Shown here piece by piece: positions 8,266 to 26,923 of a stretch of 64,000 nt of DNA. Within the stretch, counting starts at the first letter, position 1. Every line of letters begins with the position of its first letter. The notes beneath the pieces were generated by a model. It was not told the origin of the DNA, made no database searches, and was given only the letters and a program-made list of their open reading frames with translations. The position numbers and the translations under genes were made by a program. The stretch covers positions 1,015,501-1,079,500 of the forward strand of contig NC_013790.1 of NCBI RefSeq assembly GCF_000024185.1. Reading direction: 5' to 3'. Origin of the DNA: Methanobrevibacter ruminantium M1. Lineage in GTDB: Archaea > Methanobacteriota > Methanobacteria > Methanobacteriales > Methanobacteriaceae.

Positions 8266-8997
8266 ATGAGATTGAAAATTATATTAAAATCTAAAAAGAA
8301 TAGGTTGAAGATTCCTTTTAATTATAATCATATTGTTTCTGCTATAATTTATAACAAAATTGCGGATATAAAATATGCAGAGGAATTGCATTCTTCTAAT
8401 TCTTATAAATTTTTCACTTTTTCTCAATTAAATATTCATAAATTTAAAAGAATTCATTCAGGATTTTTATCTCAAAACGGCAAAATAGATTTTTTAATTT
8501 CATCACCCGATGATTATCTGATAAAAAGTTTAGTTGAAGGATTTTTAAATGATTTGACTATTAATTTCATTGGGGAAGATCTTCTTATAGAGAAAGTAGA
8601 ACTTCTACCAGTTCCCGATTTTGAAGAAGAAATTAATGTAAAAACATTATCTCCCATAATATCAAGAACTAAAAAAGAAGTGGATGGTGAATTGAAAATT
8701 TGGGATTTGGCTCCCGGTGATCATTTCTTCAAAAATTTAGAAAATACTCTTATATACAAATATTTGGAGTTTAATGGATTAGAATCAAATGATAAAAATA
8801 TAAAAATTTTTTCAGAAATGAGAAATGTGAAACGTAAACGAATAATTATTGAAAAAGGTGATAAACAAACGTATCATAGGGCATATATGATGGATTTAAT
8901 TCTAAAAGGTGATAAAGAATTGTTAAGATTTGCTTATGATGCGGGTTTAGGTGAAAAGTCTGGACTTGGTTTTGGCATGGTTAAGGTGATTAATTAA
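8266..8997 (+). CDS. cas6: CRISPR endoribonuclease Cas6
   Basis: A 243-residue RAMP protein that cuts the CRISPR precursor RNA within each repeat. The C-terminal glycine-rich loop GLGEKSGLGFGMVKV is the family hallmark, and SLVEGFLNDL, DHFFKNL and the basic stretch VKRKRIIIEKGDKQTYHRAY fit the ferredoxin-like folds. His residues in the N-terminal half are candidates for catalysis. GGGGGC lies before the ATG. The stop overlaps the cas8b start by one base (TAATG), so the two are translationally coupled. It is the first gene of the type I-B operon. Confidence 0.92.
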   Translation: MRLKIILKSKKNRLKIPFNYNHIVSAIIYNKIADIKYAEELHSSNSYKFFTFSQLNIHKFKRIHSGFLSQNGKIDFLISSPDDYLIKSLVEGFLNDLTINFIGEDLLIEKVELLPVPDFEEEINVKTLSPIISRTKKEVDGELKIWDLAPGDHFFKNLENTLIYKYLEFNGLESNDKNIKIFSEMRNVKRKRIIIEKGDKQTYHRAYMMDLILKGDKELLRFAYDAGLGEKSGLGFGMVKVIN

Positions 8998-11156
8998 TGA
9001 TATCTGATTTAGTTGATTTCGGTAAATGGTTAGTTGAAAATAACGAAGACGGTATTGGATATATGGTTAAGGAAGATGATTATCTTCTAAAAATAACTTA
9101 TAATAATGAAATTGATGATTTTGTTATAGATGGTATATTTGAGAATGACAATGAAATTGTTTTAGGTTTTTATGAAAAATCTATATTTAATGATATTTTA
9201 CCGACTCCTAGAGGATCATCTGATCAAAATATCACTATTGCAAATAATACTAATTTAATGGGATTTTCACCTTTTTTACTTAATTTAGATAGTGATTTTT
9301 TAGGGCGAAAAATTAAACCAGAGAATTATGATAATGAAAGTGATTATTATAAAGTCGGTTCTGAGAGATTTTTGAAAAAAAAGGCAGGGGGTAAGTTTAA
9401 ATTAGAAAAAACTCTTGACAAGTTTACTCGATCATTAGATGATAATAAAAATAATAAACAATTTAATAATGATATAATTACTAAACTATTTGATAATCCC
9501 AATGAGCTTTTTTTAAAGAATATTCCTTCACAATATGAAGATATTTTTATTCAGGAATTTTTTAACAATCTTTCAAAAGAAGAATATATTAAAATTATAA
9601 ATAAATTTTATAAATTCTTGGATATGAATAAAAACGACATTTTGGATAGGGTCATAAAATTTAAATTAGAAGAAAATGTTAGCAGTAGATTTTTTATAGT
9701 GGGCGTTTTTGGAGACTATAGGGATTTAATAAATGATTTATGTTTTTTATATTGTAAATTAATTAAAACCAGAAATAAACATATAGAGAATTATGATGGG
9801 GGGATTTGTTCTATCCCAAATTGTAATAATCATTCAATAACCTATCCTTCTATCCAGTTTTATGCTGCCGATAAAAAATTTTATTTTAATTATTCAAATA
9901 ATATTGAAAATTCTAGTTTAAGATTATGTGATTTATGTAATAGATATATGCTTTTTGCATTTGAAAAACTTAAAGCTAATTTTAAAGGAAATATATTAGT
10001 TATCCCAAAGACTTATGACGGAGATTATAGTGAATTTTTAGAGATTATTCAGGAGGATAATGATTTTGAAGTAATTAATGAATTACTTGAAGAGAATTCT
10101 AAAAAATTTACTTATGATTTCTTAATATATACTCCTTCAAATGCTCTTTTGAAAATAGAAAAATATATTGATAATTATCAAGCTTTCCTTACTAAATTTG
10201 ATGACATCAATCTATATAATTATGGAAATTTAAATTATTTGTACAATGAAGTTCTAGTTAATGATGAAAGTTCCTTAGATGAAGATAGAATTATTATTAA
10301 GATTTCTAATCTTTTTGATTTTCAAATTATTTTTAAAGAATTATTTTATGAAGTTGATGATGGGAGATTAAAATATCCTAAAATGAATTATTTTTATCAA
10401 ATTTATAACAAGGAGTTAACTGGAGAGAATGGTATATTTAATGGTTTTAGTTCAAAAACAGTTAATATATTTTCAAAATATAAAGATAATATTTTCAGTT
10501 TTATTTATGAAGCGAATTTTGATGCATTAAATAAAAATATGATTAATACAATTGTTTTAAATTCATTAACCATTTTTCAAAAAAATTCTATTAAAAAATC
10601 TATTAGATTTGAAATTGTTAAAAGATTAAATTATTGGTTTATGTTTAAAAAAGAATTTTTAGGAGATACTATGTTATTAAATGAAAATGTTTTAAAGTTA
10701 AGACAAATATTTGGACATCCTAATATTACTACTGGTGAAAATAATAATGAAAAAATTGAAGTAGTCTTTGACGATGTTGAGAAAAAACAAGTTTTAGATT
10801 TAATTAAAGAGGATAATGCCATTAAATATTATTTGATAGGTCAATTAATTGCATATATTGATGATTTCAAATATAGTTCTGGCAAAAAAAGAGAGGTTTT
10901 TACTAATTTTATTACAAATGCTCATAGGAATAATATTAAAAAACTTTTTGCAACTGAAATATTACAAAAAAATGTTTTTTATATTAATCAAATGAATAAA
11001 AAAGGAAAATTTTTATTTACTATGCTAGAATCTGATTATGGGTCTTTATTTAATGAGGAAGATTTATCTTATGAAGATTATATTTTGTTGTTATTTACTG
11101 GATATTACACAACAAAATTTTTGAAAAAAAATTATGTATACAATGGAGATGAATAA
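8997..11156 (+). CDS. cas8b: Type I-B Cascade large subunit Cas8b
   Basis: A 719-residue protein placed between cas6 and cas7, as expected for the large subunit that recognises the PAM and recruits Cas3. It carries two CxxC-type knuckles (CSIPNC near residue 270 and CDLC near 305), the zinc-binding feature of Cas8b/Csh1-like proteins. The sequence is very Asn/Ile/Lys-rich with almost only A/T-ending codons. Assignment rests on position, length and the zinc knuckles, because this subunit is poorly conserved. It is followed after one base by cas7. Confidence 0.85.
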   Translation: MISDLVDFGKWLVENNEDGIGYMVKEDDYLLKITYNNEIDDFVIDGIFENDNEIVLGFYEKSIFNDILPTPRGSSDQNITIANNTNLMGFSPFLLNLDSDFLGRKIKPENYDNESDYYKVGSERFLKKKAGGKFKLEKTLDKFTRSLDDNKNNKQFNNDIITKLFDNPNELFLKNIPSQYEDIFIQEFFNNLSKEEYIKIINKFYKFLDMNKNDILDRVIKFKLEENVSSRFFIVGVFGDYRDLINDLCFLYCKLIKTRNKHIENYDGGICSIPNCNNHSITYPSIQFYAADKKFYFNYSNNIENSSLRLCDLCNRYMLFAFEKLKANFKGNILVIPKTYDGDYSEFLEIIQEDNDFEVINELLEENSKKFTYDFLIYTPSNALLKIEKYIDNYQAFLTKFDDINLYNYGNLNYLYNEVLVNDESSLDEDRIIIKISNLFDFQIIFKELFYEVDDGRLKYPKMNYFYQIYNKELTGENGIFNGFSSKTVNIFSKYKDNIFSFIYEANFDALNKNMINTIVLNSLTIFQKNSIKKSIRFEIVKRLNYWFMFKKEFLGDTMLLNENVLKLRQIFGHPNITTGENNNEKIEVVFDDVEKKQVLDLIKEDNAIKYYLIGQLIAYIDDFKYSSGKKREVFTNFITNAHRNNIKKLFATEILQKNVFYINQMNKKGKFLFTMLESDYGSLFNEEDLSYEDYILLLFTGYYTTKFLKKNYVYNGDE

Positions 11157-11157
11157 A

Positions 11158-12117
11158 ATGACTGAAGGAACACCTGTAAGAAACTATTACCAAGGAATTT
11201 ACTTAACTGAAACTATAATGGGCAATCCAAATGGGGATTTTATAGATAATTCTCCAAGAAATGTTGATGGTGCGGTATTTACTACTGATAAGTGCATTAA
11301 ATATAATGTTAGGAAATATATTCATGATACTTTAGAAAACTTTGGTGAAAAAGAAAATATTGTTTTCTTTTTCCCACGTCTTATTGATTCAACAAATGAA
11401 GAAGATATGAAGTTTAAAACTAGAGATCAGGTTTTCGAACATTTTAAAAATTTTGAAGAAATTTTAAAAGTATCTCCTGATGTAAGAATGTTTGGTGGAA
11501 CATTTAGTGTTGATAATAATGCTAAACAAATCTATGGGCCTATACAATTAAGTTATGGTTTAGATATTAATGGAGCACAAATCATCCGTCATCAAATTGG
11601 CGCCCCATTCGCTACAAGTGAAGGAAGCCAAAAAACTGTTGGTTCTGAATCAGTTGTTGATGATGCAATTATTGCTTATGACATTACTATCAATCCGAAT
11701 AATTATAAAGATTTATTATTAGAGGATGATTTAGAACTATTTAAAAAAGCATTATGGGAAGGCACTAATTTAAGAAAAACAACTAGTAAAAAGACAGATT
11801 CCAAATTATTAATTTTAATTAAATTTAAAAATGATTCTGAAAATGATAAAGTTGATGCAATAAATATGGGAGAATTGAAACAGTTAATTTCCATAAAAGG
11901 CGGCAAATCTAAAAAAATGGATGAAAATACTATTTGTTTGGATTGTGAAAATCTAGTTAAAAAAATTAAAAAGTATGAAAAGTACATTGAATGTATTGAT
12001 ATTTATTGTGATTCTGATGATGTTGAATTGAATTCATTAGAAATTGATGGAGAAAATTTAAAAGACACTAATATTAAAGTCAACATCTATGAACCTTTAT
12101 CATTACTTTCTGATTAA
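11158..12117 (+). CDS. cas7: Cascade backbone protein Cas7 (type I-B)
   Basis: A protein of 319 residues. I chose ATG 11158: it lies one base after the cas8b stop and nine bases after a GGAG site; in-frame ATGs at 11143 and 11149 are upstream and less well placed. The opening YLTETIMGNPNGDFIDN has the NPNGD motif of Csh2/Cas7 proteins, and IRHQIGAPFAT is also typical. In the complex several Cas7 copies coat the crRNA. It sits in the usual order between cas8b and cas5. Confidence 0.92.
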   Translation: MTEGTPVRNYYQGIYLTETIMGNPNGDFIDNSPRNVDGAVFTTDKCIKYNVRKYIHDTLENFGEKENIVFFFPRLIDSTNEEDMKFKTRDQVFEHFKNFEEILKVSPDVRMFGGTFSVDNNAKQIYGPIQLSYGLDINGAQIIRHQIGAPFATSEGSQKTVGSESVVDDAIIAYDITINPNNYKDLLLEDDLELFKKALWEGTNLRKTTSKKTDSKLLILIKFKNDSENDKVDAINMGELKQLISIKGGKSKKMDENTICLDCENLVKKIKKYEKYIECIDIYCDSDDVELNSLEIDGENLKDTNIKVNIYEPLSLLSD

Positions 12118-12151
12118 AAAAGGTCTTTTCTAAGTTATAGTTTGTGATTTT

Positions 12152-13015
12152 ATGAAAATTATTGAAGTTGATATTTGGAGTAGTTTTGGTTGTTTTAGCA
12201 AACATTTCTCCAACACTGGAGGTGTTTTGACTCATTTAATTCCTCCAAAAACATCAATTATTGGTATTATTGGAGCTATTTTAGGTTATGATGTAAATGA
12301 TTATGAAGATAATGATGATGGGACAAAAACTTATAAAATTGAGTCTTTAAACAATATAAAAGTATCTATTTATCCATTATTTGAGTTTAAAACTAAAAGA
12401 GTTATATTTAATCTGGTTAGTGGGACTAATTTAGACTTGGATATTAAAAATATTAATCAAGATGTTTTAATATCCCCAAGATATAAATTATTTATTTCAT
12501 TCCCTTCAGAATTAGATGAAGTTGAAGAATTATTTTTAAATAGGGTAAAAAATAATAAAACTATTTATAATTTATATATGGGGAGAAATGAATTCCCTTT
12601 GAATTTGGAGTTTGTAAGAGAAATTAATGCTGAAAAACATATATTTAGCAATGACAATTCAGATGAGTTAAAATCCATTAAAGTTTATGGCTCATTAAAC
12701 AGATCTTCCATTAAATCATTAAATTTATCTTATGAAGATAATGATTCTAAAGTTGATTCTGATGCACTCAGTTTAATAAGTTCACTTTTAATTTCTAATT
12801 CTGCTGATGGTGTGAGACATTTAAAAAGTTTTCATGAGTTTACTATTAAAGATTATCCTATTAAAAGAGAAAATTTTACAGATTTTTCTTATTCTCCAGT
12901 ATCTTTTTACAGTTCAAAGAAATTTGGAGAGTGTTTTTTCTCTAATTTGCAACTTAAAGATGGTGAAATTGAATTAGTTAATATTGGTGATGATAAGTGG
13001 TTATCTCTCATTTAA
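12152..13015 (+). CDS. cas5: Cascade subunit Cas5 (type I-B)
   Basis: A 287-residue RAMP protein that caps the 5' handle of the crRNA. The N-terminus (VDIWSSFGCFSKHFSN, then HLIPPKTSIIGIIGAILGYD) is the standard Cas5 start, with the first strand followed by the helix carrying PPKTSIIGIIG. The 3' end overlaps the GTG start of cas3 by 19 bases in another frame. Position and motif agree. Confidence 0.93.
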   Translation: MKIIEVDIWSSFGCFSKHFSNTGGVLTHLIPPKTSIIGIIGAILGYDVNDYEDNDDGTKTYKIESLNNIKVSIYPLFEFKTKRVIFNLVSGTNLDLDIKNINQDVLISPRYKLFISFPSELDEVEELFLNRVKNNKTIYNLYMGRNEFPLNLEFVREINAEKHIFSNDNSDELKSIKVYGSLNRSSIKSLNLSYEDNDSKVDSDALSLISSLLISNSADGVRHLKSFHEFTIKDYPIKRENFTDFSYSPVSFYSSKKFGECFFSNLQLKDGEIELVNIGDDKWLSLI

Positions 13016-15822
13016 ATTTTAATGAAAATGAGTCTGTAATTGAGATTAATAGCGATTATTTTAAAGTATATGCTCATAAAAATGAATTATTTAATGAGCA
13101 TATCTCTAAAACTTTAAACATTTTTAAAACAATTAAATCAGAGAATATTTTAATCAATTTCTATGATTGGTTTAAAGATCAGGGGTATATTCATTTAACT
13201 TTTGAGGAGTTTAATTTTTTAATTGAGGAATGTGTCAGATTTCATGATGTGGGGAAGTTATCATTTAATTTTCAGTTAAAAAGATTAAATAAAAACAACC
13301 CTGCTAAAAAGAAGGAACAAATTAATGTTTTAAAAAAATTTGGATTAGATTCTATTTTGAATCAATTTGAAGGAAATCACTCCTTGTCTGGTGCATTATC
13401 TTTTTTATCAAAATATTATGATGTTTTACCAAAAAATGAATTATTTTTTCTTATTTTAGCTTATGTTATTATAGGACACCATACAAATTTAAAAGACATT
13501 GTAAGTCAGGATGATTTTTTTTATAAGGAATTTGAAGAAAATCAAGCTCTTAGCACTACTTTAAAATTTTTTGCATTGTTTTTTGGTTTAAATCAATCCA
13601 CAATTAATCAGAAGTTTTTTCAAGAAATTAATGATATAGGATTTGATTTTTTAGAGAATACTATAAATCATTATGATTCTTCCTTTTCATTTTTTTATTC
13701 ATACATTTATTCTTTATTAATTAGTGCAGATTCACTAGCCACTAGTGAATATAAAAACTCTACAGACCAAATTGATTATTCAAAATTTAATCATAGAATA
13801 TCAGATAAGTTATTTGCCCATATGTATAAATCATTTTATAATGTTAAACATAATAGAAATCTTTTAAATGAGACATTTAATTTAAATGATATATGCCCGG
13901 AGGATATTAATGTTTTAAGGAAAGCGATGCTTTTAGAATCATCAGAAACTTTAAATAATGCTTTAATGGATGATGATAAAAAAATATTTTTCTTAAATAT
14001 GCCTACTGGAGGAGGCAAAACAAATACTTCTATGAAATTAGCTTTAGATATGGTAAAAAATACTGATGCTAATCGTATTATTTATGCAATGCCTTTTATT
14101 AACATTATTGAGCAAAATTTTGATGTAATTTGTAAATCCTTTGGTTTAAATGAAGAAGAGGGGAATATACGTCAAATATATTCCGCATCTGAGACTATTT
14201 TTAATAAAAGTGATGAAGAGACATTAGAAATAATTTTATCTGATGATTTTTTTAATTATCCGGTTATTTGCACTACTTTTGTTAGTTTATTTAATCCTAT
14301 AATAAAAAATAATAAAAAATATAAATATCGTTTAAATGCGTTATCTAATTCAGTAATTATTCTTGATGAAATTCAATCTTTACCTTTGAGGAATTGGGTG
14401 AGTTTATATTTTATCATTAATGAGTTATCTGAAAAATATAATATTTATTTTTTAATTATGAGTGCAACTTTACCTAGTTTTGATAAGTTAAAATTAGAAA
14501 ATATTAGGGATGATGATAATTTTTTAAACTATAATAATGTTTCATTAATTAACAATCCTGAAAAGTATTTTAATCATGATTTGTTCTCAAGAACTAATAT
14601 TAATGGAGGAATTAAAAAACTTGGAATAAATGATGATTGTAGTATAGATTACTTTTTAGAAATTATTAGAGAAAATTTTAGTCAAGATTATAATAAAGGA
14701 CTTATCGTCTTGAATACAATTAAATCATCTAGATTGATTTATGATAAATTAAAAGACTTTTCTCAGGAATATAATTTTGATATTGACTTATTAAATTCAA
14801 GTATTTTGCCTAATAGGCGAAAAAATATTATTCATAAAATCAATCAGGAAGATTTATCAAATTATATTTTAATTAGTACCCAAAGTATTGAAGCTGGAGT
14901 GGATGTAAGTTTTGATTTTGTAATTAGGGATTTTTCGATTTTAGATTCAATAGAACAAGTTCGAGGTAGATGCAATAGGAGTAGGGAATTAAATGATAAG
15001 TTTCATGATTCTAATATTAAAGGTAATGTTTATTTAATTAATTTGGAGGATGATAATAGTAATCTTTATAAATATATTTATAAAGATGTGGAACTTAAAA
15101 CAAGAATTAAAGAAACAATTAATCTTTTTAATGAAGGTTTTGAGTTAAATGATGATTTAAATTATCAATATAGTAACATATTAACTTATTATGATAATGT
15201 TTCTTTAGATATAAATGATGTGCATGATTCTATGGATCAATCATTCTTGCGTAATGATAGAAGAAATATCGTGTTTTGGAATAAAATGAAGTATTCTAAA
15301 ATTCAAAAAAAGAAAGGCATTCATATTATATTAAATGATTTAAAGCAATATTCTATATTTATTCCATTAGATATTAAAATTTATGATGATTCTTTAAATT
15401 TGGATAAAACAATAGAGGATATGGATTTGAATGAGTTAAGAGAGATTTATGACGAATTTGGGAAACATTTTATTTTTTCATTGAATGAGATTTTATTTAT
15501 GAAAGAAAATAGTGATTTTTTAATAGAAGGAGATTATGTTATAGGGGAGGAGGTATTAAACCATTTTCAAACTATGGTTGCTAGAGTAAAAGATGATTAT
15601 AATCAAAAATTATTAGTTGAAAAGGTATTTTCATCTATTTTAAGCAATTTTATTATGAATATTTCTTTTAATAATTCCGATCTTGAGGAACAAATTAAAG
15701 AATTAGATAAAGAAAGTTATTTCTATATTTTAGAGAAGAATATGATTGGTGATTCTGAGGAGCATTTCTATTCTGAAGAATATGGTTTTAATTTTAAACC
15801 TACTATAACAAATATATTATGA
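12997..15822 (+). CDS. cas3: CRISPR nuclease-helicase Cas3
   Basis: A 941-residue fused HD nuclease and superfamily 2 helicase that unwinds and degrades the target strand. The HD domain shows H83-D84 (FHDVGK), H128 (NHSLSG), H161-H162 and D245. The helicase has Walker A MPTGGGKTN at 335-343, DEIQ at 457-460, SAT at 489-491, and the late motifs STQSIEAGVDV and QVRGRCNR. All key residues are present. GTG 12997 is used, with GGTGA at 12986-12990 inside cas5; no ATG is nearby. The stop overlaps the cas4 start (ATGA). Confidence 0.96.
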   Translation: MVISHLNFNENESVIEINSDYFKVYAHKNELFNEHISKTLNIFKTIKSENILINFYDWFKDQGYIHLTFEEFNFLIEECVRFHDVGKLSFNFQLKRLNKNNPAKKKEQINVLKKFGLDSILNQFEGNHSLSGALSFLSKYYDVLPKNELFFLILAYVIIGHHTNLKDIVSQDDFFYKEFEENQALSTTLKFFALFFGLNQSTINQKFFQEINDIGFDFLENTINHYDSSFSFFYSYIYSLLISADSLATSEYKNSTDQIDYSKFNHRISDKLFAHMYKSFYNVKHNRNLLNETFNLNDICPEDINVLRKAMLLESSETLNNALMDDDKKIFFLNMPTGGGKTNTSMKLALDMVKNTDANRIIYAMPFINIIEQNFDVICKSFGLNEEEGNIRQIYSASETIFNKSDEETLEIILSDDFFNYPVICTTFVSLFNPIIKNNKKYKYRLNALSNSVIILDEIQSLPLRNWVSLYFIINELSEKYNIYFLIMSATLPSFDKLKLENIRDDDNFLNYNNVSLINNPEKYFNHDLFSRTNINGGIKKLGINDDCSIDYFLEIIRENFSQDYNKGLIVLNTIKSSRLIYDKLKDFSQEYNFDIDLLNSSILPNRRKNIIHKINQEDLSNYILISTQSIEAGVDVSFDFVIRDFSILDSIEQVRGRCNRSRELNDKFHDSNIKGNVYLINLEDDNSNLYKYIYKDVELKTRIKETINLFNEGFELNDDLNYQYSNILTYYDNVSLDINDVHDSMDQSFLRNDRRNIVFWNKMKYSKIQKKKGIHIILNDLKQYSIFIPLDIKIYDDSLNLDKTIEDMDLNELREIYDEFGKHFIFSLNEILFMKENSDFLIEGDYVIGEEVLNHFQTMVARVKDDYNQKLLVEKVFSSILSNFIMNISFNNSDLEEQIKELDKESYFYILEKNMIGDSEEHFYSEEYGFNFKPTITNIL

Positions 15823-16325
15823 GTGACTATATGAAATCAATCAATGGAACCCAAATAAACTACTATTTCATATGTAAAACCAAGCTTTGGCTATTTTCAC
15901 ACAATATCCAAATGGAACAGGAATCAGATAATGTTTCTTTAGGTAAACAACTCCATGAAACATCATATAAAAAAGAAAAAGAGTTTTTAATAGACAATCT
16001 AATAAATGTAGACTTTATTAAAAACAAAGACCCAATTGAAATTCATGAGGTTAAAAAGACCCAATCTATGGAAATATCTCATGAATATCAATTACTATAT
16101 TATATGTACTATCTAAAGAAAGAAAAAGACATCAGCAATACAGTGGGCTATTTAAATTATCAGAACATCAGAAAACAAATTGAAATAGAACTTACTGAAG
16201 AAAAAGAAGAAGAACTGGAAACAGTTCTTAATGATATTAAAAGTATTGTCGATTCAGATGTTCCAAGTCCTAAAAAGTCACGAATTTGTCGAAAATGTGC
16301 TTATTTTGAATTTTGTTTTGCTTAA
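15819..16325 (+). CDS. cas4: CRISPR adaptation nuclease Cas4
   Basis: A 168-residue RecB-like nuclease with an iron-sulfur cluster that trims and orients new spacers. One Cys (YFICKTK) is near the N-terminus and three (CRKCAYFEFC) are at the C-terminus, the cluster ligand pattern. EIHEVKKTQ supplies the E-x-K nuclease motif. The ATG overlaps the cas3 stop; a second in-frame ATG at 15831 is possible. From here on the codons use more C-ending forms than in cas8b and cas3, suggesting a different history for the adaptation genes. Confidence 0.93.
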   Translation: MSDYMKSINGTQINYYFICKTKLWLFSHNIQMEQESDNVSLGKQLHETSYKKEKEFLIDNLINVDFIKNKDPIEIHEVKKTQSMEISHEYQLLYYMYYLKKEKDISNTVGYLNYQNIRKQIEIELTEEKEEELETVLNDIKSIVDSDVPSPKKSRICRKCAYFEFCFA

Positions 16326-16385
16326 ATTTATTGTATTTTTATTATTTTTAATTTATTTATTTTTTATTTTAAAGGGGGAAAATAA

Positions 16386-17354
16386 ATGTCTAAAAAGAAT
16401 TATTACTTATTATCAGAAGGTATTCTAAAAAGAAAAGAAAACACCATATACTTTGTAAATGAAAAAGGTTCAAAACCACTTCCAATAAACAAGATATACT
16501 CTATGTATGCCTATGGCCAAATAACTATTTCTTCACAAGTGATTAGTCTGTTTGCAAAAGAAGGAATTCCAATCCATTTCTTTAACTATTATGGCTACTA
16601 CAATGGCAGCTTTTATCCAAGAGAATCACTGTTATCAGGCGATTTATTAATCAAGCAAGCAGAGCACAATATTGATTTTTCAAAAAGATTAAAATTAGCC
16701 AAGCTTTTTGTTGAAGGTGCGGCTAAAAACATCTTAAAAGTGCTTGCATATTATAAAATTGAAAACAATATTAAAAACACCTTAACAGAATTGAATGAAT
16801 CTTCAAAAATTACAGAAGTTATGAATGTAGAAGGTCGAATCCGTGCAGAGTATTATCAGTATTTTGATGACATACTTCCAGATGAGTTTAAAATGGAAGG
16901 TAGATCAAGACAGCCCCCTACAAATATGATAAATTCGTTAATTAGCTTTGGAAATTCTATGATGTATGCTAGCGTAATTACTGAGCTGTACAATACTCAA
17001 TTAAACCCTACTATCTCTTATCTTCATGAGCCCGCTGAGAGAAGATTTTCACTCGCTCTTGATTTAAGTGAAATATTTAAGCCAATTATTGTAGATAGAG
17101 TTATTTTTTATTTAGTCAATAAGAAAATGATAACTGAAAAGGACTTTAATCAAGATCTTAACTGCTGTCTTTTAAATGATAAGGGAAGAGCCACTTTTGT
17201 TAAGGAATATAATAAAAGACTTGAGACTACCATCAAACATAAAGATTTAGGCAGAAAAGTTTCTTATCAAAGGTTAATCAGACTAGAAGCTTATAAACTT
17301 AAAAAACATGTTTTTGGTATGAAAGAGTATGATCCATTTGTTATTTGGTGGTAA
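16386..17354 (+). CDS. cas1: CRISPR integrase Cas1
   Basis: A 322-residue integrase of the Cas1-Cas2 spacer-insertion complex. The metal-binding residues are visible: E149 in NVEGRIRAEYYQ, H214 in SYLHEPAERR and D226 in LALDLSEIFKP. The length is normal for the family. AAAGGGGG precedes the ATG. The stop lies two bases before the cas2 ATG. Confidence 0.96.
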   Translation: MSKKNYYLLSEGILKRKENTIYFVNEKGSKPLPINKIYSMYAYGQITISSQVISLFAKEGIPIHFFNYYGYYNGSFYPRESLLSGDLLIKQAEHNIDFSKRLKLAKLFVEGAAKNILKVLAYYKIENNIKNTLTELNESSKITEVMNVEGRIRAEYYQYFDDILPDEFKMEGRSRQPPTNMINSLISFGNSMMYASVITELYNTQLNPTISYLHEPAERRFSLALDLSEIFKPIIVDRVIFYLVNKKMITEKDFNQDLNCCLLNDKGRATFVKEYNKRLETTIKHKDLGRKVSYQRLIRLEAYKLKKHVFGMKEYDPFVIWW

Positions 17355-17356
17355 GT

Positions 17357-17623
17357 ATGTATGTTATAATAGTTTATGACATTAAAGTAGAAAGAGTAAA
17401 TAAGGTAAAAAGTTTCCTTAGACAACATCTTTTTTGGATACAAAATTCAGTATTTGAAGGAGAATTGACAAATAGTGAATATAAAGCAGTAACTGATGGT
17501 TTATTGAATATTATTGAAGAAGATGAAGATTCTGTTATTATTTATCAATTAATGATGGAAGAATCTTTAACAAGAAATGTTTTAGGGGTTGAAAAGGCAT
17601 CAGTGGATGATGTTATTTTGTAA
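17357..17623 (+). CDS. cas2: CRISPR adaptation protein Cas2
   Basis: An 88-residue protein with the ferredoxin-like Cas2 start MYVIIVYDIKVERVNKVKSFLRQ, including the conserved Asp in VYDI, and the FWIQNSVFEGEL segment. ATG 17357 is preferred over a TTG at 17345 that lies inside cas1. The last base of its TAA stop is also the first base of the outermost CRISPR repeat, so there is no spacer DNA between operon and array. Confidence 0.95.
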   Translation: MYVIIVYDIKVERVNKVKSFLRQHLFWIQNSVFEGELTNSEYKAVTDGLLNIIEEDEDSVIIYQLMMEESLTRNVLGVEKASVDDVIL

Positions 17624-20600
17624 TTTTAATCCCAAAATGGTCTGATTTTAACATCAATATCTGAATCAATATTGATATTATTCTTGAAATTTCAATCCCA
17701 AAATGGTCTGATTTTAACGCTCCAAACTTATCAGCATTTTCAGATTTATAATAAATTTCAATCCCAAAATGGTCTGATTTTAACTCATCATTTCCATCTA
17801 CGATTGGTTCGTTAAAAAATTTCAATCCCAAAATGGTCTGATTTTAACTTACGAGAGTAACATTCTTCTGAAGCACAGTTGGTAAATTTCAATCCCAAAA
17901 TGGTCTGATTTTAACAGGTAATAATATGAAATTACCACTACTGTTGGAGTAGATTTCAATCCCAAAATGGTCTGATTTTAACAAAACCATTCTCCAATAA
18001 TATCTTCTGTGCATATTGATTTCAATCCCAAAATGGTCTGATTTTAACCACACTTTTGACACCATAATGGACTCTTTCTTGATTTCAATCCCAAAATGGT
18101 CTGATTTTAACATTCATTCCCCCTTACTAATTCTACAAGTTTAAAAATTTCAATCCCAAAATGGTCTGATTTTAACTAGAGACAGTACAACTCAATATGG
18201 ATTAAATAGTGAGATTTCAATCCCAAAATGGTCTGATTTTAACAGAATCTACGAGAATTATTCTATCATAACTGGTTATATTTCAATCCCAAAATGGTCT
18301 GATTTTAACATTCTGCTGATGGATTAAGTTGCACTTTATCTGCTAAATTTCAATCCCAAAATGGTCTGATTTTAACTAATCCTAACCTTTATCGGTAACT
18401 TGATATTGCAAATTTCAATCCCAAAATGGTCTGATTTTAACCCAAAAAAAACATAAAAAAAAGACTCGGTAGTATTTCAATCCCAAAATGGTCTGATTTT
18501 AACTCATCTATGTCTGCCCCATATTGTATGATTCCGTTATTTCAATCCCAAAATGGTCTGATTTTAACTCATCTATGTCTGCCCCATATTGTATGATTCC
18601 GTTATTTCAATCCCAAAATGGTCTGATTTTAACTATTTGGTAGAGTCAAACCACATCGGACAGTCATCTATTTCAATCCCAAAATGGTCTGATTTTAACA
18701 CAAAGTAGAATTAAATCTTGGTAACTGGGTAACATTTCAATCCCAAAATGGTCTGATTTTAACGTTTGACTATCACTATCGTGGATGATATTGAGCATAT
18801 TTCAATCCCAAAATGGTCTGATTTTAACATAAATTATTGTTTAATAAAGAACCTGATAAGTTTAATTTCAATCCCAAAATGGTCTGATTTTAACCTTAGT
18901 CCAGTATTGGCACCTATGACTAGTGTTAATTTCAATCCCAAAATGGTCTGATTTTAACGGTGCTGAGTTATATGATGTGGAAATTGATTTTAAATTTCAA
19001 TCCCAAAATGGTCTGATTTTAACCAGAAAGCGATGTTTGGAGAGTTCTTTGAAGATGCTATTTCAATCCCAAAATGGTCTGATTTTAACTATGTATGTTC
19101 CGATGATTAGTATCATTGTGTTGAAATTTCAATCCCAAAATGGTCTGATTTTAACACGGACATATAATTTATGATACAAGCAATGTATACAAATTTCAAT
19201 CCCAAAATGGTCTGATTTTAACCAGCTTACAAAGAAATAATCGCTGATATCAGTAATAGATTTCAATCCCAAAATGGTCTGATTTTAACAATGACCTTAT
19301 GGATAATACTAAAACAGTTAAAAAATTTCAATCCCAAAATGGTCTGATTTTAACTGTGCTAGTTAATGCTAATCCTGCTCCTTCATATATTTCAATCCCA
19401 AAATGGTCTGATTTTAACTAGAACCTTTCAAGGAAGACATAGTCTGCTATTGTAATTTCAATCCCAAAATGGTCTGATTTTAACCTTGCAGAACTGGACT
19501 TGCTCCTAGAATACAATTAATTTCAATCCCAAAATGGTCTGATTTTAACATACATATCAAAGACCCTCATATCCGAAACAATGTAATTTCAATCCCAAAA
19601 TGGTCTGATTTTAACTCTTCGATTTCGTGGAATAATTGTGTGAAATCGAATTTCAATCCCAAAATGGTCTGATTTTAACATGTCACCTTGTCCTTAAGTG
19701 GTGTCTTAAGTCCTAATTTCAATCCCAAAATGGTCTGATTTTAACCAGTAGAATTCGATGCACAAAGGACAATGAGTAGATTTCAATCCCAAAATGGTCT
19801 GATTTTAACGCTCCAAACTTATCAGCATTTTCAGATTTATAATAAATTTCAATCCCAAAATGGTCTGATTTTAACTCATCATTTCCATCTACGATTGGTT
19901 CGTTAAAAAATTTCAATCCCAAAATGGTCTGATTTTAACTTACGAGAGTAACATTCTTCTGAAGCACAGTTGGTAAATTTCAATCCCAAAATGGTCTGAT
20001 TTTAACGCACTTGGAACTGCCGATGGTGTCGGAAACATCTTATTTCAATCCCAAAATGGTCTGATTTTAACGAAAAGACATCATGTCAACAATTATGAAT
20101 TGGAAGAATTTCAATCCCAAAATGGTCTGATTTTAACTTGATGATTTTATACATTCTTTTAGTTTAGAACGTATTTCAATCCCAAAATGGTCTGATTTTA
20201 ACCCAGAGTTGATAAAAAATGTACAAAACAGTTATTAAATTTCAATCCCAAAATGGTCTGATTTTAACGCGAGGAGTGCCTAAATTCACATTCAAGCAAT
20301 ACTAATTTCAATCCCAAAATGGTCTGATTTTAACGACAATGAAATTAAGAAATTAAAATCATTATTGGATATTTCAATCCCAAAATGGTCTGATTTTAAC
20401 CCTTACCATCGCTTCAGATTAGCAGAAACTACTGAATTTCAATCCCAAAATGGTCTGATTTTAACTCCAAGGTTGGCTACTTCAATGATACTGACTCTTT
20501 GATTTCAATCCCAAAATGGTCTGATTTTAACTTTACGTTGTCCTGTACCGCTTTCATCATCAACCATATTTCAATCCCAAAATGGTCTGATTTTAACTCG

Positions 20601-21651
20601 CAATAACACCGAAATTATCTAATACGAATTCATATTTCAATCCCAAAATGGTCTGATTTTAACTGCAGAAGCCCAGTTCCAAATCTTCAACTTGGACAAA
20701 TTTCAATCCCAAAATGGTCTGATTTTAACTTGTAAATTTATAGGGAATAAGACTACTGAAGAAAGATTTCAATCCCAAAATGGTCTGATTTTAACCTTTA
20801 GTAAATGGGGGGGGCAAACTTTTAGTAAAATATTCAATCCCCAAAATGGGTCTGATTTTAACCTGTGTGTATAGTTGAAGTTGCAATTGTTGATATATTT
20901 CAATCCCAAAATGGTCTGATTTTAACGTGCAAGTCCTCCAATAGATTATTTCCTCCCCTATATTTCAATCCCAAAATGGTCTGATTTTAACCCATATTCT
21001 CTCACCCAAATATAAGAATAGGATTTTGATTTCAATCCCAAAATGGTCTGATTTTAACTCCTCTGGAGCATAATAATTGAATCCTAATTTTAAATTTCAA
21101 TCCCAAAATGGTCTGATTTTAACAATTCAAATCCAACGATGTAATTTCCATCGCTTACATTTCAATCCCAAAATGGTCTGATTTTAACTATTTAGGATTG
21201 AAGAAATTGTTAATGATTGTATTGAATTTCAATCCCAAAATGGTCTGATTTTAACTGAAACAAGTTCAAGCCAAGTATAACACCTTTTCAAGATTTCAAT
21301 CCCAAAATGGTCTGATTTTAACAAATTTATTGATATCTTATTTTTATGCCTTTTTTTAATTTCAATCCCAAAATGGTCTGATTTTAACTGTTCAGTCTCT
21401 ACAATTAAGTCCTCTAGGTTTATATTTCAATCCCAAAATGGTCTGATTTTAACCCGAACCTTACTTTGAAGATGAGGAAACCTTTGAAGATAATTTCAAT
21501 CCCAAAATGGTCTGATTTTAACAAACAAGAAAACACTGCAACTAGTAATATTTTCTATATTTCAATCCCAAAATGGTCTGATTTTAACTATGTTGATGCG
21601 AAATACCCTAACAGCTTCAGGATTTCAATCCCAAAATGGTCTGATTTTAAC
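17623..21651 (-). CRISPR. Type I-B CRISPR array, 62 repeats and 61 spacers, read on the minus strand
   Basis: I counted 62 copies of a 30-base repeat (plus strand ATTTCAATCCC...GATTTTAAC) with spacers of about 34-38 bases. On the minus strand the repeat starts GTTAAAATC and ends ATTGAAAT, the 8-base crRNA 5' handle typical of type I-B. Transcription therefore runs right to left, from a leader beyond 21651. The first copy at 17623-17652, next to cas2, has one change (C to T at plus-strand repeat position 5), as expected of the oldest, leader-distal end. The copy at 20832-20862 is 31 bases with extra C and G. Spacers at 17719-17885 recur exactly at 19810-19976, and the spacers at 18504 and 18569 are identical. 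Open frames seen inside the array are repeat artefacts. Confidence 0.99.
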
Positions 21652-22007
21652 AGGCGAGAATTTTCGCCTAAATACCCCTTTTACACATTAATATTTGTCC
21701 ATTTTTTAATTTAAAATTTTCGAATGGTAAAAAAGAATTTATTTAAAACAATCAACATTTAACTTAAATCTCTTAAAATTATTAAATAATAACATATTCT
21801 TATTTAAATTTTATTCAAATTATTTTTATAATGATATTTTTCATTTAGATAATTAACAAGTTTCTAAAAGTTATTTAAAACAATTTTTAAAAATTACTTA
21901 ACTAAGTTTAATTATAAAAACACTTGGATCGACAGAATTCTTAACATAAAATTATATAAAAACCAAACCACAAACTATTAACAACAAAACATAAAAGGGT
22001 TAACAAT
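21652..22007 (-). promoter_or_regulatory. CRISPR leader region with adjoining inverted repeat
   Basis: This AT-rich gene-free stretch follows the leader-proximal repeat. Directly at the repeat border lies a perfect inverted repeat, AGGCGA (21652-21657) and TCGCCT (21664-21669). On the minus strand a TTTAAATAAA box near 21735-21746 could be the TATA element. Beyond about 21800 the sequence is plain AT-rich DNA with the promoter of the decayed gene at 22008. Confidence 0.6.
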
Positions 22008-25000: not shown

Positions 25001-25504
25001 ACTTTTTTCATTTTTTACTCATTTTTTTTTATTTTTTTAAGCTTTAAGAATTTCTTATTAATTTTAAATATTGATAATCCTTATTTAACTCACAATCCCA
25101 TTTAAGCCTTTTTAATTTCCCTATTTGTTTCATACATTACTAACTTTTTATAAATAGTTATATATGGTTAATTTTATCTATAAGCTTTTTATATAACTTA
25201 ATTTTTTATAATAAGAATTCTAAATTAGTTATATTTATATAACATAAAAATAATAAGTTATTTCAGTAATTAATTTGCTCTAGCAAGTTATTCCAGAGTC
25301 AGGTCAATTTTGATTTCAAAATGTGAAATTGATTTGAACTCGTAAAATTGTTGTAATCTCGTAAAATTGATGTAAAATTGTTAAATTGATGTCATCGTGC
25401 TAAATTGATTTCATTTCGTAAATTCAAACCCTTAAAATCGGAATATTTAAATATAAGTACTTATAGACTAAATTTACAATTTAAAGATAAAAGAGGTGAC
25501 AATC
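25001..25504. other. Intergenic region with TCGTAAAATT-type repeats
   Basis: No gene is seen. Between about 25294 and 25430 the motif TCGTAAA(A)TTG with ATTGATTT/ATTGATGT neighbours recurs four to five times. Related wording is found at 63421-63530. AATATTTAAATATAAG near 25441-25458 may be the TATA region of the next gene. Confidence 0.45.
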
Positions 25505-26710
25505 ATGACATCTGAGATTATGATTTTAACACCAACTGCAGTGGTTTTAGCGGCGGACAGTGCAGTTACAATAAGCGATATAAAAACTTATGATGGAGCA
25601 AATAAATTATTTTACCTTAGCAATAAACCTCCAATGGGAGCATTAATATATAATCTTGCAGATTTTGTAGATATTCCAATAGAAACAATCATTAAGGAAT
25701 TTAGAAGAAAGATTGATGGAAAAGAGGATTTAAGCCTTATAGAAATAAAAGATGAATTCGAAAAATATTTGCATCAGATAATTTCCAAATCAAGGTCTAC
25801 TTTAAGTTTCCAAGAGCAATTGGATTATTTTATAGAATTTATTCAAGAAGAATTGTCTTATGTAGATTTTGATGAATTTAAAATTGGTTTAAAAGATGAA
25901 CTTTCTGATTTTGATATTGGTCTTTTAGGCGATTTTAAAGATGAGGTTCAATCACAGATTGATTTGTATGAAGATAAATTTAGTTTAGCACTTCCAGATG
26001 ATTGCAATGGTTTGGATGAAGAAGATTTTATATCGGATTTAAAAAAATTGTTTATCTGTAATATGTTTTTAATGCCTTTTATTGGCATAGCAATATCTGG
26101 CTTTGAGAAAGATGAAATGTTTCCTTCATTTATTCATTTTAAGATAAATTATTTGTATGATGAAGAATTTCTTTTAAGGGATGTTGAATTTGGATCAATA
26201 GGGGATGAGGAAGTTATATTAAAGGCATTAGCTCAAGATGATGTAATAAATACCTTTTTAAATTCTATTGATTCAAAAACCGAAAGGGCATTGGAAGATT
26301 TTTTTATAGAGTTTAAAAATTTTTTATTTAATTATATTGAATATTGTATTAAATCTAATGAGGATATTAGTGAGGAGAATGAAAATTTCTTATTAGAAAA
26401 CATATCTGATATGGAATTTTCTGATGAAAAAGTTAGAAATATTTTTATTGGTTTTATAGAATGTTTGAAAGCAAAACAGAAGAAACCAATTTTAGACTCA
26501 ATTTCTGTTTTGCCAAAAGGAGAATTAAGTAATTTGGCGGATTCTTTAATAGGTATCACTTCTTTAAGAAGGAAAATTGAAGATGAAGTAGAGACAGTTG
26601 GAGGACCTATAGATGTTGCTATTATTACTAAGGGTGATGGCTTTGTTTGGATTAAATGTCATGATAGTTTTGATAAGGACTTAAACCCTCAGTTTTTTGA
26701 TAGTAATTGA
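25505..26710 (+). CDS. Proteasome-like Ntn-hydrolase family protein
   Basis: A 401-residue protein. ATG 25505 follows AGGTGACAATC and is directly followed by a Thr codon. If Met is removed, the N-terminus (TSEIMILTPTAVVLAADSAVT) lines up without gaps with the start of archaeal proteasome beta subunits: nucleophile T1, acidic D17 and, in NKLF, K33, the three residues needed for Ntn catalysis. GALIYNL fits the next strand, and the end (GGPIDVAIITKGDGFVWIKC) resembles late beta strands. Between them lies an acidic helical insert of roughly 200 residues, which makes it twice the usual beta-subunit length. It could be a self-contained peptidase with a built-in lid. The alignment is from memory, not computed. 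The small basic gene at 26747 follows after 36 bases. Confidence 0.65.
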   Translation: MTSEIMILTPTAVVLAADSAVTISDIKTYDGANKLFYLSNKPPMGALIYNLADFVDIPIETIIKEFRRKIDGKEDLSLIEIKDEFEKYLHQIISKSRSTLSFQEQLDYFIEFIQEELSYVDFDEFKIGLKDELSDFDIGLLGDFKDEVQSQIDLYEDKFSLALPDDCNGLDEEDFISDLKKLFICNMFLMPFIGIAISGFEKDEMFPSFIHFKINYLYDEEFLLRDVEFGSIGDEEVILKALAQDDVINTFLNSIDSKTERALEDFFIEFKNFLFNYIEYCIKSNEDISEENENFLLENISDMEFSDEKVRNIFIGFIECLKAKQKKPILDSISVLPKGELSNLADSLIGITSLRRKIEDEVETVGGPIDVAIITKGDGFVWIKCHDSFDKDLNPQFFDSN

Positions 26711-26746
26711 TAATTTTAATTTAGATTAATTGTTGGATGTGGATAA

Positions 26747-26923
26747 ATGCATTATTTAGAAAAATATAAATTAAAATCTTTTAGAAGGAAACCTAAAGTT
26801 TTTAGAAGAAAATACAATCCCTTCCCTGAAGGATTTGTAGAGAATTTTGTTAGAAAAAGCTTTGGAGAAATTTTGGATTCAAAAATGGATAATTCAAATC
26901 AACTTTCAAAAGAAGATAAATGA
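26747..26923 (+). CDS. Small basic protein next to the Ntn-hydrolase gene
   Basis: A 58-residue frame starting at ATG 26747, after GGATGTGGAT. The N-terminal half is very basic (LKSFRRKPKVFRRKYNPF), the second half amphipathic (EGFVENFVRKSFGEILDSK). No other start fits the strand or spacing. It lies 36 bases after the preceding stop, so the two are likely co-transcribed. It may be a partner or substrate of that protein; this is inference. Confidence 0.55.
   Translation: MHYLEKYKLKSFRRKPKVFRRKYNPFPEGFVENFVRKSFGEILDSKMDNSNQLSKEDK

Follow-up and report, generated by a model that had tools for sequence, protein, structure and literature searches.

The window analysed here, a 64,000-nucleotide stretch of the Methanobrevibacter ruminantium M1 genome (2,937,203 bp, one contig), contains an intact, ATG-initiated open reading frame for a proteasome-like enzyme and, 36 nt after the enzyme stop codon, a second ATG-initiated ORF having the size and the place typical of the small ORFs that follow homologues of the enzyme (Table 1). 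The second ORF is the small basic gene, 36 bases downstream, that the initial annotation of this DNA had described, and its length of 58 residues and net charge of +7 agree with that description. Three to four direct repeats of ~19 bp (AAATTGATGTAAACTCGTA-like; window positions 25326-25414), possibly regulator binding sites, precede the enzyme start by 90-180 bp. A Type I-B CRISPR-Cas locus (cas6, cas8b, cas7, cas5, cas3, cas4, cas1) with its array occupies window positions 8266-21714; the repeat array extends from about 17608 to 21.7 kb, and some 4 kb separate it from the enzyme gene that follows.

Table 1. Features of the enzyme locus, in window coordinates.
Feature	Positions	Strand	Basis
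Shine-Dalgarno-like GAGGTGA	25493..25499	+	direct reading; 5 nt before ATG of enzyme gene
Ntn-hydrolase / proteasome-like enzyme, 401 aa	25505..26710	+	phrog_5990 E=1e-65, homologue alignment, AlphaFold2, Foldseek
Thr1, candidate nucleophile once Met is removed	25508..25510	+	Thr in 187/188 homologues
Asp17	25556..25558	+	188/188 homologues, motif-assisted collection
Lys33	25604..25606	+	188/188 homologues, motif-assisted collection
Helical insert 1 (residues about 96-190), acidic, hypervariable	25790..26074	+	model, entropy, pN/pS
Helical insert 2 (residues about 254-335), H3/H4 gap, hypervariable	26264..26509	+	model, entropy, pN/pS
GGPIDVAIITKGDGFVWIKC, C-terminal core strands common to proteasome beta subunits	26600..26659	+	alignment
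Candidate small partner ORF, 58 aa, net charge +7	26747..26923	+	size and place as in homologues; no Shine-Dalgarno motif, no profile similarity

Fold, conserved residues and inserts of the enzyme

Comparison of the enzyme, minus its Met, with the Thermoplasma proteasome beta subunit bears out what the initial annotation had read from the N-terminus: that is, Thr1, Asp17, Lys33 and an NKLF motif align without gaps. A second signature near the C-terminus, GG-IDVAII-KGDG (in the window, GG-IDVAIITKGDG), also matches beta subunits. Position 1 is Thr in 187 of 188 homologues and Ser in one, and Asp17 and Lys33 are both present in 188/188, a count to be read with the fact that the searches used to collect the homologues included motifs containing D17 or K33; in a set of 28 sequences whose methanogen members had been collected without recourse to these motifs, T1, D17 and K33 are each present in 28/28. 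Homologues lacking Thr, Asp or Lys, which had been named as grounds for abandoning the assignment, were thus not encountered beyond the single Ser. Because Thr is residue 2 in 187/188 homologues, the enzyme family has no propeptide, so that, of the two routes to a free Thr that had been proposed, Met removal is supported over self-processing. Removal of Met by methionine aminopeptidase would expose Thr1 as the putative catalytic residue of the gene 1 product.

AlphaFold2 modelling on 87 sequences (pLDDT 91, pTM 0.87 for the enzyme) and a Foldseek search of the PDB with the resulting model reveal the Ntn alpha-beta-beta-alpha sandwich, in proteasome core order, the absence of which had been the other proposed ground for abandonment. 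In the Foldseek search 20S proteasome subunits rank first, and the best 50 PDB matches listed are proteasome subunits and one Anbu; a profile of 87 homologues compared with the PDB likewise places Thermoplasma beta subunits at the top (E about 0.001). The 20S beta subunit (e.g. 1pma, 1ryp) has the same fold as the enzyme model (Foldseek E 5e-5 to 3e-4; target-normalised TM about 0.5-0.6), the same catalytic residues and the same GG-IDVA motif. Unlike the 20S beta subunit, the window enzyme has no propeptide, has two large helical inserts and has no paired alpha subunit; the proteasome genes of its own genome lie elsewhere. HslV and Anbu (5nyg, Foldseek E 0.002 to the model) share the Ntn proteasome-like fold and do not have the inserts; two homologues weakly match the phage HslV family phrog_1040 (E 0.003-0.01), and none of the annotated loci inspected showed an HslU-like ATPase as a neighbour of the enzyme. 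The Pfam Proteasome profile touches 14 of 87 homologues (best E 2e-4); PF00227 gives no match above its curated score for the window enzyme, nor at its place in a search of its own genome, and Pfam, NCBIfam and PADLOC searches with the window enzyme as a single sequence gave no match. The model and the fold search support a predicted Ntn-type, proteasome-like fold for the enzyme.

Connectase, a monomeric proteasome homologue of methanogens in which helical insertions confer substrate specificity, is a ligase without H1/H2 and with a two-helix S3/S4 insertion (PMC8665760). The window enzyme resembles connectase in being proteasome-like, in having helical insertions and in being found in a methanogen; identification of the enzyme as connectase was rejected, since in the model H1/H2 are present and the insertions lie elsewhere than S3/S4. 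A different proteasome-like protein, of 308 aa, without large inserts and with a VGGPIDVATITK motif, is encoded at another locus (L209:612-1538), and further weak matches of this kind come repeatedly from a single genus of the family.

In the AlphaFold2 model, residues 1-95 form core strands and H1/H2, residues about 96-190 form insert 1, residues 191-253 form core strands and H3, and residues 254-335 form insert 2, after which come H4 and the last strands. The helices of insert 1 (residues 102-189) follow helices 59-70 and 78-95, and the helices of insert 2 (residues 257-334) lie between helices 245-253 and 338-359. The insert that had been noted from the sequence is, as claimed, acidic (25 D/E vs. 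7 K/R in insert 1; 18 D/E vs. 10 K/R in insert 2), helical and absent from beta subunits, but consists of two blocks, of about 95 and about 80 residues, and not of one block of 200 residues. Mean entropy across 188 homologues is 3.2-3.3 bits in the inserts and about 2.3 bits in H1/H2 and S7-H3, vs. 1.2-1.3 bits in S1-S6, H4 and the C-terminal strands. In thirteen homologue pairs, pN is higher in insert 1 than in the S1-S6 core in 13/13, most clearly in diverged pairs (insert 1 pN about 2-17 times core pN, with similar pS), and pS is broadly even along the enzyme gene. Two Methanobacteriaceae loci (L008 and L009) have flanks that are 93-99% identical, save for a lower promoter stretch, and small ORFs that are identical, yet their inserts 1 are merely 60-64% identical and interior pS is 0.35-0.60. 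Because near-identical flanks enclose a diverged enzyme interior, the comparison of these sequences points to replacement of the interior of the enzyme gene by recombination within a conserved locus.

The small ORF downstream of the enzyme gene

A loose test for a downstream small ORF (28-120 codons, starting -25 to +90 bases from the enzyme stop) was passed by 170/177 loci, yet also by 648/1130 control genes, and was therefore dropped as evidence. A strict test, which required a Shine-Dalgarno motif and 35-100 codons, removed redundancy, and used long ORFs of the same loci as controls, found a small ORF at 87/130 enzyme loci vs. 98/905 control ORFs (Fisher p 4e-42). A longer ORF with a Shine-Dalgarno motif at the same place was found at 0/130 enzyme loci vs. 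189/905 controls. The first codon of the small ORF overlaps the enzyme stop or lies directly against it. In close pairs pN/pS of the small ORF is about 0.02-0.35, on which ground the ORF is read as a translated protein, and codon comparison shows that the small partner is under purifying selection. The co-occurrence survey that had been proposed thus gives a positive answer for the family, in which a small gene follows most enzymes.

A core group of partners shares the pattern Y.S..E....FP ... DP...G..LA...L.K and spans Nitrospirota, Planctomycetota, Bacteroidota, gammaproteobacteria and archaea; the AlphaFold2 model of one core partner is helical, at moderate confidence (pLDDT 73.5). Among 105 divergent partners, 46 score above shuffles against the core partner profile at p<0.05, vs. 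about 5 expected. The profile gives one match per genome in 21 carrier genomes, with those matches having a checkable position adjoining the enzyme, and its only match in 274 gammaproteobacterial genomes is in an enzyme-carrying genome; that is, profile search of these 21 and 274 genomes found no small partner without the enzyme. Inspection of C-terminal lengths found no enzyme-partner gene fusion; a long Mesorhizobium enzyme C-terminus was rejected as a fusion since it reads across the small ORF in a different frame. Most of the inspected records, which came from E. coli, plasmids and Streptococcus satellites, leave the small ORF unannotated, which may explain why the pairing went unnoticed.

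For the window ORF the proposal of a partner peptide fares less well than for the family: no clear Shine-Dalgarno motif precedes the ORF, and kinship with the common partner profile was rejected (profile shuffle p=0.55). Whether the 58-aa ORF is the partner is therefore uncertain, the fit being one of place and size only. There is an appreciable chance, if a lesser one, that in the window this ORF occurs by chance and that the enzyme is a remnant or works with another partner, a reading with which the common occurrence of broken enzyme copies in Methanobacteriales is in accord and against which stand the ATG start, typical size and typical place (36 nt) of the ORF and the intact frame and catalytic residues of the enzyme.

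Family membership, distribution and genomic context

The window enzyme falls in PHROG 5990 (E=1e-65), as do, with E values of 1e-81 to 1e-152, homologues from Providencia, Streptococcus, Porphyromonas and Rhizobium; PHROG 5990 is a sequence cluster alone, with no function given. Judged from anatomy and distribution, the enzyme family is most likely PMI-4 ("Proteasome homolog with Multiple Insertions"; Fuchs, Alva, Lupas 2021; PMC8665760), which is known by sequence only (representative HDY66466.1), which ranges over most bacterial phyla, Euryarchaeota and phages, and for which its authors reported no gene contexts or co-occurrence pointing to function (PMC8665760). PMI-4 and the window enzyme both have a proteasome-like core with T1/D17/K33, and the enzyme model has both the long insertion after H1/H2 and the insertion between H3 and H4 that are features of PMI-4. 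The range observed here (Proteobacteria, Firmicutes, Actinobacteria, Bacteroidetes, PVC, Cyanobacteria, Euryarchaeota and phages) corresponds to that of PMI-4. In contrast to the PMI-4 paper, we find a conserved small downstream gene and a mobile-element context; the enzyme family is already known by sequence, and the two-gene module is the new element. A literature search found no paper on PHROG 5990, nor any on prophage exclusion by a proteasome-like gene. The initial annotation had missed the prophage and satellite context as well as the prior sequence-level description of the family (PMC8665760).

Relatives in genome collections were gathered by an alignment-based scan, single-sequence scans being unproductive, and number at least 486 in GTDB species genomes and 144 in IMG/VR. 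The enzyme is matched at E<1e-15 in 29/152 genomes of a sample of the window's phylum and is present in 4/274 gammaproteobacteria and in 22/5426 complete E. coli genomes (DNA search), where it is labelled "hypothetical protein". The enzyme tree mixes phyla, with some archaea nested in bacteria (30 label changes vs. a minimum of 19), and the clade of the window enzyme is Methanobacteriaceae. One methanogen genome (G059) has ten enzyme matches, several of them partial or broken.

Homologues are carried by mobile elements of several kinds: in Streptococcus, by phage satellites and at a prophage end; in Providencia, by a lambdoid phage, between Q and holin; in E. coli, by prophages, beside Q or directly after the CI-side regulator gene; and elsewhere by a Porphyromonas prophage, by Rhizobium, Pantoea and Enterococcus plasmids, and by genomic islands. 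In the two E. coli genomes inspected the enzyme gene lies in lambdoid prophages, where the small downstream ORF is present and unannotated. A survey of 52 non-redundant viral loci covered 148 flanking genes, and Q-like antiterminators (10) and phage repressors (9) were two of the kinds matched most often. Sites beside Q or a repressor are classical places for genes expressed in the lysogen. Many carriers lie outside recognisable prophages, and ordinary chromosomal loci in diverse archaea and bacteria have the enzyme too. In several genomes defence genes (Avs1a, Hma/Drm/Brx helicases, LmuA) occur near enzyme loci, and defence genes also occur among genes farther out. No PADLOC model matches the window enzyme, and the best PADLOC matches of its homologues (E 7.5e-5) were judged to be coiled-coil chance matches. 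Four rhizobial plasmids (L037, L206, L207, L208) have a multiubiquitin-ThiF gene set in the vicinity of the enzyme, and three of the four also have a ClpP-like gene there.

Possible roles of the enzyme and its small partner

We put at about even the chance that the enzyme, as a proteasome-like hydrolase, and its cognate small protein constitute a two-gene conflict module for exclusion or defence. A toxin-antitoxin or addiction pair, in which the enzyme is harmful, or in which a harmful small protein is held low by the enzyme, and which would only stabilise the mobile element, with no anti-phage role, is unlikely. Tight linkage of the two genes, a small ORF start that overlaps or abuts the enzyme stop, a fast-evolving small partner, the mobile context, and a RelBE pair a few genes off in one Streptococcus satellite would fit such a pair, but the occurrence of the enzyme at ordinary chromosomal sites across a range of archaea and bacteria, and a compact, short-branched clade of some Flavobacteriaceae that looks like stable residence, argue against it. 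An accessory general protease or housekeeping enzyme with the small ORF as a passenger is improbable: the catalytic set is proteasome-like and some carriers are in ordinary chromosomal loci, but the strong patchiness (as in the gammaproteobacteria), the hypervariable inserts and a small ORF kept in position, in size and by purifying selection are hard to reconcile with such a function. Least probable is a connectase-like ligase that uses transamidation to attach the small protein to a target, as a tag-like modification, for although connectase too is a monomeric methanogen homologue with insertions for specificity, the inserts here are not at its S3/S4 site, and nothing like KDPGA, the connectase recognition motif, was seen by eye among the partners.

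According to the two-gene conflict module reading, the window locus would be a copy of a widespread module. The gene 1 product, once trimmed of its Met, would be a threonine amidohydrolase or protease. The two helical inserts would make the standard double-ring barrel unlikely and would probably shape a specific binding site, not a general degradation chamber. The gene 2 product, from the adjacent ORF, would be a fast-evolving protein of roughly 60 residues, predicted to be mostly helical, that binds the enzyme as its cognate ligand, that is, as inhibitor, activator or substrate. The pair, which is carried as cargo by prophages, by satellites of phages, and by plasmids and genomic islands, would most likely act in conflict between phage or mobile element and host, through superinfection exclusion or defence, with a change in the small partner or the arrival of a phage protein switching specific proteolysis on or off. 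More tentatively, the pair may represent an undescribed anti-phage or superinfection-exclusion system found across bacteria and archaea: a proteasome-derived threonine protease, its hypervariable inserts serving in recognition, would be silenced by, or would signal through, a cognate 60-residue protein. The 2021 survey left the family without a functional clue (PMC8665760), and the partner, together with residence in prophages and satellites, is the first lead. If the reading is true, phage-host conflict would involve proteasome-like enzymes in bacteria and archaea alike.
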